The notes under the pieces are model-generated. The model was not told the DNA's origin. It searched no databases and saw only the letters and a list, made by a program, of their open reading frames with translations. The position numbers were made by a program, and so were the translations under genes. A stretch of DNA of 21,263 bases, from positions 1-21,263 of the forward strand of contig JALGZR010000081.1 in NCBI GenBank assembly GCA_025774805.1, read 5' to 3'. Below are positions 3,495-9,253 of this stretch, piece after piece; positions within the stretch are counted from its first letter, which is position 1; the number at the start of each line of letters is the position of its first letter. Origin of the DNA: a bacterium (GTDB taxonomy: Bacteria > ARS69).

Positions 3495-4151
3495 ATGCCA
3501 TCCGCTCCCGTCGGCGAGGTCCGGCTCGTTCGCGATGCCGCGGAAGCCGCCGCGCTGCTCCATCCGATCCGGCTCCGCCTTCTCGAGCACCTATCGGAGC
3601 CCGACACCGCGTCGGGCCTGGCCCGGCGTCTCGGTCTCTCCCGACAGAAAACGAACTACCACCTCCGGCAGTTGGAGCGGCAGGGTCTCGTCGTCCTCGT
3701 GGAGGAGCGGCGGCGGGGCAACTGCAGGGAGCGCCGGGTCCGCGCCGTCGCGGGCGGGTTCGTCCTGAGTCCCGAGGTGCTCGGACGGCTCGGTGCCAGA
3801 CCCGAGTCGGTGAGTGATCCGAACTCCACGGCGCGTCTCCTCGCCGTGGCCTCCGAGATCGTGCGCGACGTGGCCGCTCTCGGGCCATCCGACCCGGGTG
3901 ACGCCGAAACGCCGGCCCCGATCGAGCCGACCGCGACCCTGTGCACCGACTTCCGTCTCCATAGTCCGGAGGCGTGGCGGGACTTCGTCATGGAGGTCGC
4001 CACCGAGGTCACCCGCGTGGTGGAGAAGCACCGCGATCGGGACGACGATCGTTCCGAGGGAGCGGCCCGGCCCGAGCCCGGGGCCGAGGGTGATGACCGG
4101 GAAGACGGAGTGCGGGTCGTGCTGGGAATCCTCCCCGCGCCGCCCCGCTAG
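3495..4151 (+). CDS. Winged helix-turn-helix (ArsR-like) transcriptional regulator
   Basis: The protein has 218 residues. Residues about 18-85 form an ArsR/Lrp-type winged helix: AAALLHPIRLRLLEHL, then a recognition region GLSRQKTNYHLRQLERQGLV and a basic wing (EERRRGNC). The rest has a variable linker (about 120-145), a predicted helix SPEAWRDFVMEVATEVTRVV (about 165-184) and an acidic low-complexity stretch. No cysteine cluster typical of metal-sensing ArsR proteins is seen, only isolated C77 and C148, so the signal is unknown. The start is ATG 3495, with a weak GAGG upstream. The TAG stop is the first triplet of the inverted-repeat element at 4149-4328, so the element fixes the C-terminus. 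The gene is 24 bases after gyrA, but a functional link is unproven. Confidence 0.82.
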   Translation: MPSAPVGEVRLVRDAAEAAALLHPIRLRLLEHLSEPDTASGLARRLGLSRQKTNYHLRQLERQGLVVLVEERRRGNCRERRVRAVAGGFVLSPEVLGRLGARPESVSDPNSTARLLAVASEIVRDVAALGPSDPGDAETPAPIEPTATLCTDFRLHSPEAWRDFVMEVATEVTRVVEKHRDRDDDRSEGAARPEPGAEGDDREDGVRVVLGILPAPPR

Positions 4152-4328
4152 CCCGCATTTCTCACCAGGCTCGTCGCGAGGCAGCGGATAGTCGTGTCTG
4201 GCGAGGAGATGGGGTGCTTCCGCCCGAGGCGGGGCCGTAGCCCCGTCGCAGGGCGGAGGCGCCGCAACGACGAAGCCAGGCGCGGCTTCGCCGCTGCCGC
4301 AGCAGAGACTGGTGAGATATGCGGGCTA
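4149..4328. repeat. Structured inverted-repeat element, long copy (180 bp)
   Basis: The outer ends are inverted repeats: bases 4149-4168 (TAGCCCGCATTTCTCACCAG) match the reverse complement of 4309-4328 at 19 of 20 positions. Inside are nested stems: 4181-4187 GCAGCGG with 4291-4297 CCGCTGC; 4216-4225 with 4251-4260 (9 of 10); a hairpin GCGGGGC/GCCCCGT with CGTA loop at 4229-4246; and a hairpin CGAAGCC/GGCTTCG at 4271-4290. The terminal TAG on each side is the stop codon of the convergent flanking genes. A shorter relative lies at 7948-8008. No transposase or U-tract is present, so a REP/MITE-like element or a bidirectional 3'-end structure are both possible. Confidence 0.85.
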
Positions 4329-5759
4329 CCCGTCGTCGGAGCCCGTTCCGGAGTCGGCGGAAGGAGGGGCCCCGGAAGCGGCCGGCGGGACGGGGGGCTC
4401 CGAGGAGGATGGAGCGCGCGGCGCATCGGAAGACGTGACCGGCGTCTCGACCGAGGGCATGGAGGTCGCTGCGGCGGCCCCCCCCGCCGTGGCGGCGTCC
4501 GACCCACCCGGACTCTGATCCCGCCGGTCCCTCTTCTTGATCGGCTTGCCCTCCTCGTCGAGCTTCCCGTCGAGCCACTTCTGGTGATACTTGCGGGAGG
4601 TGGCGCAGTCACTGAAGGCGCGCTTCAGGTTCGCGCTCATCCAGGGCTTGCGCTTGACGCCCCCGAGCGTCGCCTGAAAGAGGCTCTTGGGAATGCACGG
4701 CTTGTCCCAGTAGTTGTGGGTGGCGATGACGCTGGCCGTCGACGAGCTCTGAATGGCCAGCTCGGTCTCGCCGAGGAATTGATTCGCGTTCTCGATGCTT
4801 CCCCCGATGAGAGGATTCGCGTCGCCCTCGATCCCGATGTGGTTCTTCGGATTGTCGCGGAAGGTGCACCGGAGGATCCTCGGCTCCCCCTCGATCGAGG
4901 AGATCGCGCCGAACCCGTTGCTGTCGACGACGCACTCGATGAGCTCCGCCGACGACGCCTCCATGACGATTCCGATGTTCTCGTGGCCGTGGATCCTCAC
5001 GCCGGTCATCAGCGGGGACGAATCCTGGAGGATGATTCCCGTGTCCCCGTTGCGGACGATCTCGCAATCGGTCACCGTGAAGTCCGCCTCCACCGCCTGA
5101 ATTCCGATCTGGGCGTTCTCGGAGATCAGGCAGTCCCGGATTCTCGCCAGATCGGTAGTCCCGCTCATGTAGATTCCGTACTTCTCTCCGAGAAGGAAGC
5201 GGGAGTTCTTGGACTCGATGGATCCTCCGGAGACGAACAGCCCCGCCGCCAGCGCGCTCTTCACGGTGACGTTCTGGACATACGGGCGCGATCCACGATG
5301 GGAGGCGATACCGTACTCCACGCCCACGATCTGGAGGTCCGAGAGCACCGGGCGGCTGTCGGAGTTGCAGAGGATCCCGCGGCGTGCCTCGTCCCGTCCG
5401 TCGATGGTGAATCCGACGAGCTGGGTGGAATTCGAGCACCGCTGGAACGTGACGACGGCTTCGTTGACGTTCGAGACTTCGCCGTAGGTAATCACGGTTT
5501 CGAGAGACCCGTGGGTCGACATGAGCACGATCCCGTCGCCCGCATTGTCGGTGAACAGCAAGGACTCGCGGTAGGTCCCCGGACCGACCAAGATCCTGTC
5601 GCCCCACCCCGCCGCCTCGAGAGCCGCGGTGATGGTCTCGTGATCCTCGGGGACGCGGAGAGTCGCCCCCTCCGCTCCGACCGGGGAGCCGATGCCCGTC
5701 GCCGGGACGATCGCGGCAAAGGCGAGGCCGAGGCTCCGGATCCAATGTTGAGTTCTCAT
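4326..5759 (-). CDS. Secreted right-handed parallel beta-helix repeat protein
   Basis: The protein has 477 residues. The start is ATG at 5759, preceded on the minus strand by GGAG about 10 bases upstream. Residues 1-30 form a Sec signal peptide (hydrophobic GLAFAAIVPATGIG, probable cleavage after VGAEG). Next comes the motif ITAALEAAGWGDRILVGPGTYRE typical of pectate-lyase-like/NosD-like beta-helix proteins, then about ten rungs of short GI/V-rich strands to about residue 345. A cap contains NYWDKPC and KRKPWMSANLKRAFSDC. The last ~85 residues are a Lys/Asp-rich linker and a Ser/Pro/Ala/Gly-rich disordered tail. No polysaccharide lyase catalytic residues can be assigned, so activity is unknown; an extracellular or envelope structural or carbohydrate-binding role is inferred. 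The TAG stop falls in the right end of the repeat at 4149-4328. Confidence 0.85.
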   Translation of the reverse strand: MRTQHWIRSLGLAFAAIVPATGIGSPVGAEGATLRVPEDHETITAALEAAGWGDRILVGPGTYRESLLFTDNAGDGIVLMSTHGSLETVITYGEVSNVNEAVVTFQRCSNSTQLVGFTIDGRDEARRGILCNSDSRPVLSDLQIVGVEYGIASHRGSRPYVQNVTVKSALAAGLFVSGGSIESKNSRFLLGEKYGIYMSGTTDLARIRDCLISENAQIGIQAVEADFTVTDCEIVRNGDTGIILQDSSPLMTGVRIHGHENIGIVMEASSAELIECVVDSNGFGAISSIEGEPRILRCTFRDNPKNHIGIEGDANPLIGGSIENANQFLGETELAIQSSSTASVIATHNYWDKPCIPKSLFQATLGGVKRKPWMSANLKRAFSDCATSRKYHQKWLDGKLDEEGKPIKKRDRRDQSPGGSDAATAGGAAAATSMPSVETPVTSSDAPRAPSSSEPPVPPAASGAPPSADSGTGSDDG

Positions 5760-5824
5760 GGGTAAAGCTCCGATTTCCCATCCGCGGGGGGCCTCGGACG
5801 GCCGCGGACCAGCAGGGGCGCGCG

Positions 5825-5853
5825 TTGACCTGCTCCCCGGGGTTTGCTAGCGT
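5825..5853 (+). promoter_or_regulatory. Candidate sigma-70 promoter for rex
   Basis: TTGACC (5825-5830) is followed 17 bases later by TAGCGT (5848-5853), with a TG one base before the -10. The -35 is good and the -10 is poor. It is placed about 40 bases upstream of the rex start, in the 134-bp region shared with the divergent beta-helix gene. A loose dyad (TTGCTAGCG..CGTGACA) overlaps the -10 and could be a degenerate Rex autoregulatory site, but the match is weak. Confidence 0.4.
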
Positions 5854-5893
5854 TCGTGACAGCTCTGTCCGACTTTCAAGGACGTCCCGCCGC

Positions 5894-6559
5894 ATGTCAA
5901 GTCCGCGGAAGATCTCGGACTCCACGGTCCGCAGACTGTCCTCCTATCTCCGCACTCTGGACAGCCTTCGGGCCCGCGGGCACGATACGGTGTCCTCCGT
6001 TCATCTGGCCGCGGCCGGCGGCCTCACCCCCGCCCAGGTCCGGAAGGATCTGTCCTTCTTCGGCAGTTTCGGGGTGAGGGGGCGGGGTTACGACGTTCAC
6101 GTGCTTCGAGGGGAGATCGCCCGGATTCTGGGTCTCGACCGCAAGTGGTCCACCGTGGTGGTGGGCGCGGGACGCCTCGGGTCGGCGCTCGCCTCCTACC
6201 CCCGCTTTTCCCGGCAGGGCTTCCGGATCGTGGCTCTCTTCGACAACGACTCCGAGAGATTAGGGACCCGCATCGGGGACGCGGAGATACTCCCGGCGAC
6301 CGAGCTGGAGAGCTACGTCCGGCAGCACGAGGTCAGCTTCGGAATCCTGACGACTCCCGCCTCCGCCGCACAGGAGACCGCCGACCGGTTGGTCGCGGGG
6401 GGCATTCGGGGGATCCTGAACTTCACTCCGACCGTTCCCGAGGTGCCCGAAACGGTCCATCTTCGCAACGTGAACCTGACCATCGAGCTCGAGGGTCTCT
6501 CGTTCGCGATCCGCGAGGCGGAGATCCGAGAGGGACCGCAAGAGGGGGAATCGGACTGA
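5894..6559 (+). CDS. rex: Redox-sensing transcriptional repressor Rex
   Basis: Rex is a homodimeric repressor that binds DNA when NAD+ is high and releases it on NADH binding, controlling fermentation and respiration genes. The chosen start ATG 5894 (AAGGA at 5877-5881) gives 221 residues, close to the family norm of about 210-220; an upstream in-frame TTG would add a non-conserved leader. Residues 1-75 are the winged helix, with the Rex signature QVRKDLSFFGSFGVRGRGY (48-66). Residues 86-200 are a Rossmann domain with GAGRLG at 91-96 and a following FDND acidic strand end. The C-terminal swapped helix follows. hflX begins just downstream and may be co-transcribed. There is no obvious target gene in the window. 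Confidence 0.95.
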   Translation: MSSPRKISDSTVRRLSSYLRTLDSLRARGHDTVSSVHLAAAGGLTPAQVRKDLSFFGSFGVRGRGYDVHVLRGEIARILGLDRKWSTVVVGAGRLGSALASYPRFSRQGFRIVALFDNDSERLGTRIGDAEILPATELESYVRQHEVSFGILTTPASAAQETADRLVAGGIRGILNFTPTVPEVPETVHLRNVNLTIELEGLSFAIREAEIREGPQEGESD

Positions 6560-6600
6560 GCCGCCGCGCCCGCTCGACCGAGCACGCCGACCAGCGCCAG

Positions 6601-7950
6601 GTGCAGCGCGAGAAGCGCCGAGTCGCGCGACGGGCGGCCCGCGCGCGCCGGGGAGAGGTTCGCGACCCGCGGCGGATCGCCGGAGAGGAGGTGGCGATCG
6701 TCGTCGGCCTGCGCCTCCCCGACCTGCTGCGGGCGGAGTGCGAAGAGAGCCTCGACGAGCTCGCCGCGCTGACGCGGGCGTGCGGCGCCCGGGTCGTCAA
6801 GAAAGTGCTCCAGAGTCGCGCCCGGATCGACGGCCGCACGTTCATCGGCGCGGGCAAGACCGCGGAGCTGAAGGAGGAGGCGGGCGCACTCGGCGCGAAC
6901 CTCGTCGTCATCGATCACGATCTGTCGCCCGCGCAGGGGCGCAACCTCGAGAGGATCGCCGACCTCAAGATCCTCGATCGGACCGAGCTGATCCTCGACA
7001 TCTTCGCCCGGCGGGCGCGCACCCCCCAGGCCAAGCTCCAGGTCGAGGTGGCGCAGCTCGAATATCTCCTTCCCCGGCTGACACGTCTCTGGGAGCACCT
7101 GAGCCGTCTCGGCGGCGGAATCGGAACTCGGGGACCGGGTGAGACGCAGCTCGAGGTCGACCGGCGACGGATCCGGGATCGCCTGGGAAGGTTGAGACGG
7201 AAGCTGAAGCGGACCGGAAAGAGGCTCGAGGTCCAGCGGAACCTCCATCCCGACGTCTTCCGCGTGGCGCTCGTCGGCTACACGAACACCGGGAAGAGCA
7301 GCCTGATGAACCGCCTCACCGACTCCGCGATCGAGAGCGGAGATCGGCTGTTCGAGACTCTGGACGCCACCACGCGCATCCTGAATCTGGGTTCCGGCTT
7401 CCGCGCCACTCTGACCGATACGGTCGGTTTCGTGCGGCGGCTCCCGCACTCGCTCGTCGAGTCGTTCCGCGCCACGCTGGCGGAGGTGTCCCAGGCCGAC
7501 CTGCTGCTGCACGTCGTGGACGCCTCGTCCTCCGAGGCGGACGCCCGCCGGCAGTCGGTCACCGAGGTTCTGCGGGAGATCGGCGCCCAGGACGTTCCGC
7601 AGGTGATCGTCTACAACAAATGCGATCTGCTCGGCGCGGAGGAGCTCACGGGGTTGAGACGGCGGTACGAGAACGATGCCGAGACCGTGCTCGTGAGCGC
7701 CCTCTTCGGCGACGGCATCGACGCCCTCGCCGAGGCCATCCGGCGCCCGCTTCGCAGTGGATGGATCGAAGCGGACGGCATCGTTCCCCCTTCGGAAGGA
7801 GAGCTCCTCGCGCGCCTCCGTTCGGTGGCCGAGATCGTGACCGAACACCCCCTCGAGGACGGGATCCGGGTCAAGGTCCGCGTCTCTCCGGGAGAGTGGG
7901 GTCGCCTGCGCGCCCGCTACGGCGACCGGGCTCCTCGTCTGTTCGACTAA
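6601..7950 (+). CDS. hflX: Ribosome-associated GTPase HflX
   Basis: HflX is a GTPase that binds the 50S subunit and splits or rescues stalled ribosomes. The N-terminal HflX domain has GRTFIGAGKTAEL and DHDLSPAQGRNLE. The linker has the family hallmark GGGIGTRGPGETQLE followed by a basic helical segment. The G domain carries G1 GYTNTGKS (226-233), G3 DTVGF (273-277) and G4 NKCD (339-342). The start is uncertain. GTG 6601 gives 449 residues with a basic N-terminal leader but no clear Shine-Dalgarno. A CTG at 6556 overlapping the rex stop has a strong GAGGGGG seven bases upstream. GTG 6691 would cut close to the first conserved strand. The TAA stop is the first triplet of the short repeat copy at 7948-8008. 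Confidence 0.93.
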   Translation: MQREKRRVARRAARARRGEVRDPRRIAGEEVAIVVGLRLPDLLRAECEESLDELAALTRACGARVVKKVLQSRARIDGRTFIGAGKTAELKEEAGALGANLVVIDHDLSPAQGRNLERIADLKILDRTELILDIFARRARTPQAKLQVEVAQLEYLLPRLTRLWEHLSRLGGGIGTRGPGETQLEVDRRRIRDRLGRLRRKLKRTGKRLEVQRNLHPDVFRVALVGYTNTGKSSLMNRLTDSAIESGDRLFETLDATTRILNLGSGFRATLTDTVGFVRRLPHSLVESFRATLAEVSQADLLLHVVDASSSEADARRQSVTEVLREIGAQDVPQVIVYNKCDLLGAEELTGLRRRYENDAETVLVSALFGDGIDALAEAIRRPLRSGWIEADGIVPPSEGELLARLRSVAEIVTEHPLEDGIRVKVRVSPGEWGRLRARYGDRAPRLFD

Positions 7951-8008
7951 CCCGCATGTCTCACCGGTCCCTGCGGCGGCGGCAGAGGCTGGGGAGAGAT
8001 GCAGGCTA
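7948..8008. repeat. Structured inverted-repeat element, short copy (61 bp)
   Basis: The left 22 bases match the left end of the element at 4149 at 18 of 22 positions, and the right 38 bases (7971-8008) match 4291-4328 at 30 of 38. The ends are inverted repeats of each other (14 of 18). The internal stem-loop block of the long copy is absent. As in the long copy, the outermost triplets are stop codons: TAA (7948-7950) of hflX and TAG (8006-8008, minus strand) of the aminotransferase. It lies in a convergent gap of only 55 bases. Confidence 0.78.
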
Positions 8009-9253
8009 CCCCTCCACCGTCATCGCCTGCATCCGCCGCGCGGCCTCCCGCAACCGCTCCGGAGTCTCGTTGCCGACCGCGATGCGGAGGCGGTCGTGCT
8101 CGTTCCTCCCGAAGGCGGAACCGGGAAGGCAGACGACGCCCGTCTCGCGCGCGACCCGGTAGGCGAGGCGCCAGTCGGTCGAGTCACCGGTCACCGGGCC
8201 GGAGGTCGCGTCCGGAGGTGCGTCGAGAGACTCGGTCGGGGGCGCGCCGCGGAACGTGCGGGGCGTCGCGCGCACCCAGGCGAAGAACGCTCCTCGAGCC
8301 TCCACCTCGAAGGGGCCCGGCCGGCCGCCGAGCTCCGAGGTGAACGCATCGACACGACGCTCGATCTCGGAGCGATGGAGTGCCAGCCAGTCGTCGAGAC
8401 CGGGCCAATCGAGCGCGGCGATCACCGCGAGCTGTCCCGGGTGCGGCGCGCAGACGGCGGCCGAGTCCTGCACCTTGAGGACCTCCGCCACCACCCGCGC
8501 GGAGGCCGCAACGAACCCGACACGGTAACCGGTCATGGCGAGGGACTTGGAAAACGTGCCGAGCACGATCGCGTGATCCGCCCACCCGTCGAGGGCCAGC
8601 AGCGTCGCGGGCGCCCGGGACTCGGGAAAGAACTCGAGGTAGGTCTCGTCGACGACGAGACACACCGAGCGCGCGGCCGCCCACGCGAGCAGGGCCTCCA
8701 GCCCGGCCCGCTCGAGGCAGTGCCCCGTCGGATTGCTCGGATTCACGACGACGAGGATTCCGCCCGCCGGCACGACGTCGAGCAATCCCTCCCGGAGGCA
8801 GCTCTCGATCGAGCGGTCGAGGGGCAGCCGGATCTCCCCGACCTCACCGCCGAGGAGCTCCACGGACATCGCGTGGTTGAAGTAGTAGGGCGACACGAGG
8901 TGAACCCGGTCCCCCGGATCGAAGAGCACGTTCGCGGCGAAGTGGAAGGCGGCGTTCGCCCCCGGCGTGAGGAGCACGTTTTCGGCGGCCAGGCGGGCTC
9001 CGTGACGGCGCGTCAGCCAGGTGGCGGTCGCATCGCGACACGCGGGGAGCCCCGGGTCGGGAGTGTAGCGCGCCGCGGCGGGATCCGCGGCCGCGGCGGC
9101 CAGGGCCTCCCGCGCCGGATCGGGAGGGGCATAGGACGGCACCGCCTGACTGAGATCGACCACGTCTCCCCGGGCCAAAAGCGCGCGCAGGGTGTCCTTG
9201 AAGGCGACGATGGGCGGGGCGATCACGCGCTCGGCTCGGGCGGCGATCCTCAT
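8006..9253 (-). CDS. Class I/II pyridoxal-phosphate aminotransferase
   Basis: This is a fold-type I PLP enzyme of the aspartate aminotransferase superfamily, 415 residues. The ATG at 9253 was chosen because GGAGGA sits six bases upstream and the conserved sequence begins there; an upstream ATG at 9367 has no such support. The PLP-binding aspartate is D202 in VVDETY, the Schiff-base lysine is K236 in GTFSKSLAMTGYRVGF, the cofactor/substrate asparagine is in NPSNPTG (171-177) and the carboxylate-binding arginine is R390. A poorly conserved Pro/Asp-rich loop (about 331-360) interrupts the small domain. Substrate cannot be assigned; aspartate, aromatic or branched amino acids are all possible. 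It is transcribed divergently from the DUF72 gene, and its stop lies in the repeat element. Confidence 0.9.
   Translation of the reverse strand: MRIAARAERVIAPPIVAFKDTLRALLARGDVVDLSQAVPSYAPPDPAREALAAAAADPAAARYTPDPGLPACRDATATWLTRRHGARLAAENVLLTPGANAAFHFAANVLFDPGDRVHLVSPYYFNHAMSVELLGGEVGEIRLPLDRSIESCLREGLLDVVPAGGILVVVNPSNPTGHCLERAGLEALLAWAAARSVCLVVDETYLEFFPESRAPATLLALDGWADHAIVLGTFSKSLAMTGYRVGFVAASARVVAEVLKVQDSAAVCAPHPGQLAVIAALDWPGLDDWLALHRSEIERRVDAFTSELGGRPGPFEVEARGAFFAWVRATPRTFRGAPPTESLDAPPDATSGPVTGDSTDWRLAYRVARETGVVCLPGSAFGRNEHDRLRIAVGNETPERLREAARRMQAMTVEG

Follow-up and report, generated by a model that had tools for sequence, protein, structure and literature searches.

The two inverted-repeat elements that separate convergent genes in the window (the whole stretch of 21,263 nucleotides analyzed here) are best explained, on the evidence as a whole and with a probability of about three in four, as a full-length and an internally deleted copy of a high-copy, non-coding transposable element with a conserved folded strand of its own. 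The element would insert into a 4-bp YTAR target, in this genome mostly CTAG, and duplicate it. One of its strands folds into a rod of ~178 nt with conserved internal motifs, as covariation shows, and propagating lineages would keep this rod across phyla even when the sequence of the terminal helix is replaced. The rod would serve the element, with no service to the neighboring genes. The features of the two copies in the window are the following.

4148..4151, unstranded: left target copy CTAG; TAG at 4149-4151 is the stop codon of the gene at 3495-4151 (+)
4152..4325, + strand: full-length element, running from end A to end B on the + strand; covariance-model score 132.8 bits
4152..4168, + strand: left terminal inverted repeat CCCGCATTTCTCACCAG, end A, from arm comparison
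4172..4180, + strand: conserved internal motif CGTCGCGAG of the 5' side, from the alignment consensus
4228..4247, + strand: apical hairpin GGCGGGGC-CGTA-GCCCCGTC, which covaries between lineages
4298..4306, + strand: conserved internal motif CGCAGCAGA of the 3' side, from the alignment consensus
4309..4325, - strand: right terminal inverted repeat, end B, from arm comparison
4326..4329, unstranded: right target copy, now CTAC; 4326-4328 is the TAG stop codon of the gene at 4326-5759 (-)
7947..7950, unstranded: left target copy CTAA; TAA at 7948-7950 is the stop codon of hflX, 6601-7950 (+)
7951..8005, + strand: internally deleted copy of the same element; covariance-model match with E=1e-5
8006..8009, unstranded: right target copy CTAC; 8006-8008 is the TAG stop codon of the aminotransferase gene at 8006-9253 (-)

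An earlier note on this DNA held that related inverted-repeat elements fill both convergent gaps, and coordinates and arm complementarity agree with it: the arms of the first element are 24 nt each and 92% complementary, and the second, of 57 nt, is by the covariance model an internally deleted member of this family. The bounds are corrected to 4152-4325 and 7951-8005, the outer bases being the target duplicate (CTAG/CTAC and CTAA/CTAC). With one flanking base per side, the first element folds as a 176-nt rod of -135.7 kcal/mol, compared with -108 for the other strand. All four stop codons that the note had placed at element ends coincide with element junctions, and the four flanking genes are indeed unrelated (encoding an HTH regulator, a beta-helix protein, HflX and an aminotransferase). 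At the remaining convergent junction (15264/15325), which ends in TGA, there is neither a CTAG nor such an element. Three of the four CTAG sites in the window are TAG stop codons. Duplication of CTAG leaves an inward-reading TAG at both ends, which accounts for the four stop codons in the window.

The possibility that these were the only two copies in the genome is refuted by 314 terminus matches with at most one mismatch, against 0 in a reversed control (525 against 25 with at most two mismatches). In the 2.13 Mb of this genome (G000) that were read for the survey there are 98 paired elements and ~80 good solitary ends. Lengths cluster at 175-177 nt, with deleted forms of 49 and ~57-78 nt, and the sequence of the 49-nt form can be accounted for by a deletion bounded by two GAGGCTG repeats, the first within the A arm and the second beside end B. 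The family is thus short, multi-copy, without coding capacity and bounded by terminal inverted repeats, as MITEs are. Ends A and B can be told apart within the terminal repeat (..GGCTCGTCGCGAGG at end A and ..CTCTGCTGCGG at end B), so every copy has an orientation, and neighboring elements abut one another at a single shared CTAG. A second subfamily with termini CCCGG-NNNN-TTCATGAAGATC is present at L036:8712-8889, L038:13909-14086, L038:15855-16032, L042:4652-4829 and L048:5289-5466, and its length and internal motifs are identical to those of the main family. In a genome of the same family and a different genus (G004), a 50-nt version at L052:1501-1550 is flanked by TTAG and CTAA and may mark a further pair of convergent stop codons.

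The flanks are most often CTA[G..C]TAG. Where they are not CTAG they can be equal at both ends, as in TTAA..TTAA at L230 and CTAA..CTAA at L194 and L201; many copies are flanked CTAG..CTAG, and some have unequal flanks such as CTAG/CTAA. From the cases of TTAA..TTAA and CTAA..CTAA, which match at both ends, we infer that the element is CCYGCAT..ATGCRGG with a duplicated 4-bp YTAR, usually CTAG. The same cases fit 4 bp and not the 2-bp TA duplication of an IS630/Tc1 MITE, which the CTA..TAG flanks had suggested and for which the genome has no DDE_3 (PF13358) gene. IS4/IS5 mobilization and REP/RAYT were rejected as well, DDE_Tnp_1 and the Y1 transposase both being absent from this genome. A 1-kb candidate for an autonomous copy in L198 was set aside, its interior ORF, judged by eye, not being recognized as a transposase.

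Most likely, the element is mobilized in trans by transposases of the IS1380 family, which would recognize the shared termini; this view is drawn from the termini, the target site and an IS1380 copy with an identical end in Eisenbacteria. That Eisenbacteria genome, which carries 161 termini, bears an IS1380 transposase gene of complete length (L204; PF13701, E=1e-149), and the terminus 3' of the gene is identical to that of the element over 17 bp. The left side of the L204 copy is cut by another insertion, and an intact helper with both matching ends was not seen in element-bearing genomes. Elsewhere, IS1380 ends match the element termini on both sides (L217), with CTAG|CCCGCATTTYTCAC at both ends in an IS1380 of Bradyrhizobium; an Azotobacter IS1380 terminus, CCCGGATTTCTCATGA, is close to the second subfamily of this genome, and the IS1380 elements L220 and L221 are flanked CTAA..CTAA. 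The likeness to IS1380 (DDE_Tnp_1_4, PF13701) covers both the termini and the YTAR-type 4-bp flanks CTAG/CTAA, although IS1247, a member of the IS1380 family, was reported with 5-bp repeats (PMC3281130). Unlike IS1380, the element has no transposase gene, and its interior did not appear to derive by deletion from any of the IS1380s that were compared. IS1380 transposases form the prokaryotic outgroup in piggyBac trees (PMC10813416), and piggyBac shares the 4-bp duplication (TTAA) and ends starting with CC; it differs in being eukaryotic and protein-coding, and the resemblance runs through IS1380 only.

The only trace of the IS1380 family in this genome is a C-terminal transposase remnant (L131:1747-2085, on contig C17 of G000), near which no matching element ends were found. 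Against such mobilization, an intact IS1380 gene was found neither in this genome nor in most other hosts, these being draft assemblies, which can lose multi-copy transposons. The ends examined at IS1380 loci in genomes G035 and G159 were uninformative. At L162, L167, L191 and L197, from Myxococcales bin59p, contigs end ~50 bp or less from an element terminus. Contigs break at these repeats, so multi-copy helpers could be lost from draft assemblies.

The choice of target bears directly on the proposal, made in the earlier note, that the element is a device kept at the 3' ends of genes to stop translation and to protect or terminate both converging transcripts. In favor of that proposal, the hairpin is very stable, and of 95 gene ends running into an element 36 stop exactly at the junction, against at most 4 for any other offset, counts that are approximate since the gene calls come from a simple hexamer-based finder. 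Placement without regard to stop codons is thereby refuted, and the in-frame bias recurs in other phyla (18 in frame, compared with 7 and 8 for the two remaining frames). The target itself, however, is sufficient to account for the association. CTAG is ~18-fold depleted in the 2.13 Mb (359 observed against 6335 expected by base composition); 111 of the 359 sites are gene stops, and among unoccupied non-coding CTAG sites 111/229 (48%) are TAG stops. Elements with both CTAG flanks intact lie at stops in 14/27 cases, a share that equals this CTAG null (p=0.84). Thus the claim that the element targets 3' ends holds insofar as termini lie at stops far above chance and fails as a preference beyond that for CTAG: the stop-codon rule is real yet a by-product of target choice and tolerance of harmless insertion. 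Harmless insertions would concentrate at stops, CTAG being rare and about half of its non-coding sites being TAG stops.

The preference for convergent gaps is likewise only partly upheld. Every gene orientation is used around elements (++ 33, -- 22, +- 20, -+ 15 and 6 inside genes), with a modest convergent excess at stop insertions, 15/32 against 29/111 for free CTAG stops (p=0.03). For a selected device in place the data speak poorly: the full copies in this genome show no clear bias of element orientation relative to gene sense, a test for intrinsic terminators (a GC-rich stem followed by a T run) found no T-tract terminator at elements, and the copies decay in a near-neutral manner, single changes giving G:U 85 times and A·C 58 times, with 31 and 29 distinct types. 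The pneumococcal repeats BOX, RUP and SPRITE show the same pattern of convergent gaps and stop codons, with 36 genes of Streptococcus pneumoniae taking their stop codon from a BOX element, and these repeats are read as parasitic (PMC3049150). We consider a 3'-end device very unlikely. The apparent supply of stop codons reflects target choice and harmlessness rather than design, and advises caution against reading function into such junctions.

The transposable element of our main reading is spread well beyond this genome. Full copies of 174-180 bp occur in several phyla, with interiors only ~50% identical between most lineages. Among the matches listed in a pattern scan, the same termini and spacing (177-179 bp) are found in Nitrospirota, Myxococcota, Acidobacteriota, Deltaproteobacteria and Eisenbacteria, and the terminus alone in further groups; the terminus pattern gave no copies in viral contigs. 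Full-length relatives whose terminal helices are quite different were detected with the covariance model in this genome, in a member of its family and in distant genomes, with a patchy distribution (12 of 145 sampled genomes). In genome G151 (L275, L286, L290 and L294) there are rod-core relatives of 115-126 nt, whose ends are self-complementary and quite unlike those of the element and which lack a YTAR flank.

In all lineages the element folds as the same unbranched rod, with A->B-strand z-scores between -9.7 and -13.3. In a 32-sequence alignment of the main family, 30 of 48 pairs have double changes and 93.1% of cells are paired, compared with 35-47% with slid partners; shuffles reach none of these measures. 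Among relatives with other terminal helices, whose helix sequences differ outright with complementarity kept, double changes affect 45 of the 48 pairs, every one of the 18 terminal pairs among them, and the covariation score is 0.716 against 0.07-0.12 in controls, figures from an alignment that was fitted to the model and so leans toward structure, and of which a few rows are main-family copies. The compensatory changes exceed controls as in structured RNAs, and the interior retains conserved sequence (T.CGT.GCGAG, CCGGA..CGTA / TACG.CGAGGA and CGCAG.AG.A). The element thus resembles Rfam structured RNAs in its conserved fold, compensatory changes and conserved loop sequences, although Rfam 15 contained no family that reached its gathering score, with only chance-level matches below it.

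Bacterial MITEs are usually regarded as passive deletion products. The element might be an ordinary MITE of the IS1380 type that arose as an inverted duplication, its hairpin being accidental and its interior having no conserved function. This would suit the termini, the target and the copy number; individual copies decay, and bacterial MITEs commonly give rise to transcripts with stem-loops (PMC10969869). Against this, interiors that have diverged to ~50% identity between phyla keep the rod, the bulge pattern and the length through compensatory changes, the terminal pairs covary without exception in the relatives, internal motifs are conserved and the pairing is strand-specific, all of which makes a plain MITE rather improbable. 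The strand preference is seen in each of the 45 full copies scored in this genome, in which the A->B strand folds better (mean -121.7 against -94.9 kcal/mol), and among ten lineage representatives in the ratio of G:U to A·C positions, 31:4, which is partly favored by the folding itself and with which the consensus pairs agree.

Pairing kept on one strand most simply indicates an RNA. The folded strand could alternatively be single-stranded DNA that moves like integron attC sites or IS200/IS605 ends, with the terminal helix as a recombinase substrate. Terminal-helix bases that are hypervariable yet complementary, in genome G118 and in the second subfamily here, would suit such a substrate (in one genome a stretch of ~4 nt is hypervariable and complementary copy by copy), and tolerance of G·T in DNA could also yield the strand asymmetry. 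However, a YTAR duplicate at either end is what a DDE reaction on double-stranded DNA would suggest, a Y1 transposase is lacking here as mentioned above, and copies show no clear orientation bias relative to local GC skew (17/45), so that we regard single-stranded DNA as quite improbable.

A further alternative is a family of host-beneficial, structured non-coding RNA genes that was made mobile in some lineages by acquired transposon ends. The fixed length and the motifs kept across phyla are compatible with it, as are several low-copy relatives, some of them close to tRNA genes: three of the four short relatives in G151 are near tRNA genes, the nearest 4 nt upstream of tRNA-Met. The hundreds of decaying copies here, the patchy occurrence and the absence of any conserved gene neighborhood of the element in what we saw argue against it, and we think it unlikely.

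We return to the element whose fold is its own. The fold is preserved in propagating lineages and not in each inserted copy, which suggests that it has a part in the life cycle of the element itself. The folded single strand, probably RNA, would belong to that cycle: it might assist transposition as an RNA, make insertions tolerable by acting as a shield, or be a single-stranded DNA substrate. We read the family, from its sequences, as a class of mobile element with a conserved single-strand fold. The paired core kept across phyla, the covarying terminal pairs, the strand-specific wobble and the fixed length imply that the folded strand matters to the element, and the question of whether small transposons need an RNA becomes directly testable.

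Classed as a repeat, the element belongs to a known type, the MITE; the conserved structured element that it represents appears to be undescribed, and its termini were not found in the literature searched. Correia and ERIC elements are likewise short repeats in high copy number that have inverted termini and whose transcripts fold, and RUP, BOX and SPRITE resemble the element in these respects and in convergent-gap enrichment. None of the five is known outside related species, whereas the element here spans phyla and exhibits strand-specific covariation and exchangeable terminal helices. It is tempting to go further and propose an undescribed class whose propagation depends on a conserved, strand-specific rod RNA of fixed length (~178 nt). 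The class would be spread over many phyla and would swap terminal helices to suit one or another IS1380-type transposase, with the RNA core kept; we put this forward tentatively, at somewhat less than even odds.

In 13 of 96 elements the outward neighbor gene is predicted to start at an ATG within the terminal repeat, as at L035:6455-6630, L036:14459-14633 and L099:12698-12872. The terminal repeat contains GGTGAGANATG, a sequence resembling a ribosome site followed by a start codon, and element ends may donate translation starts too.
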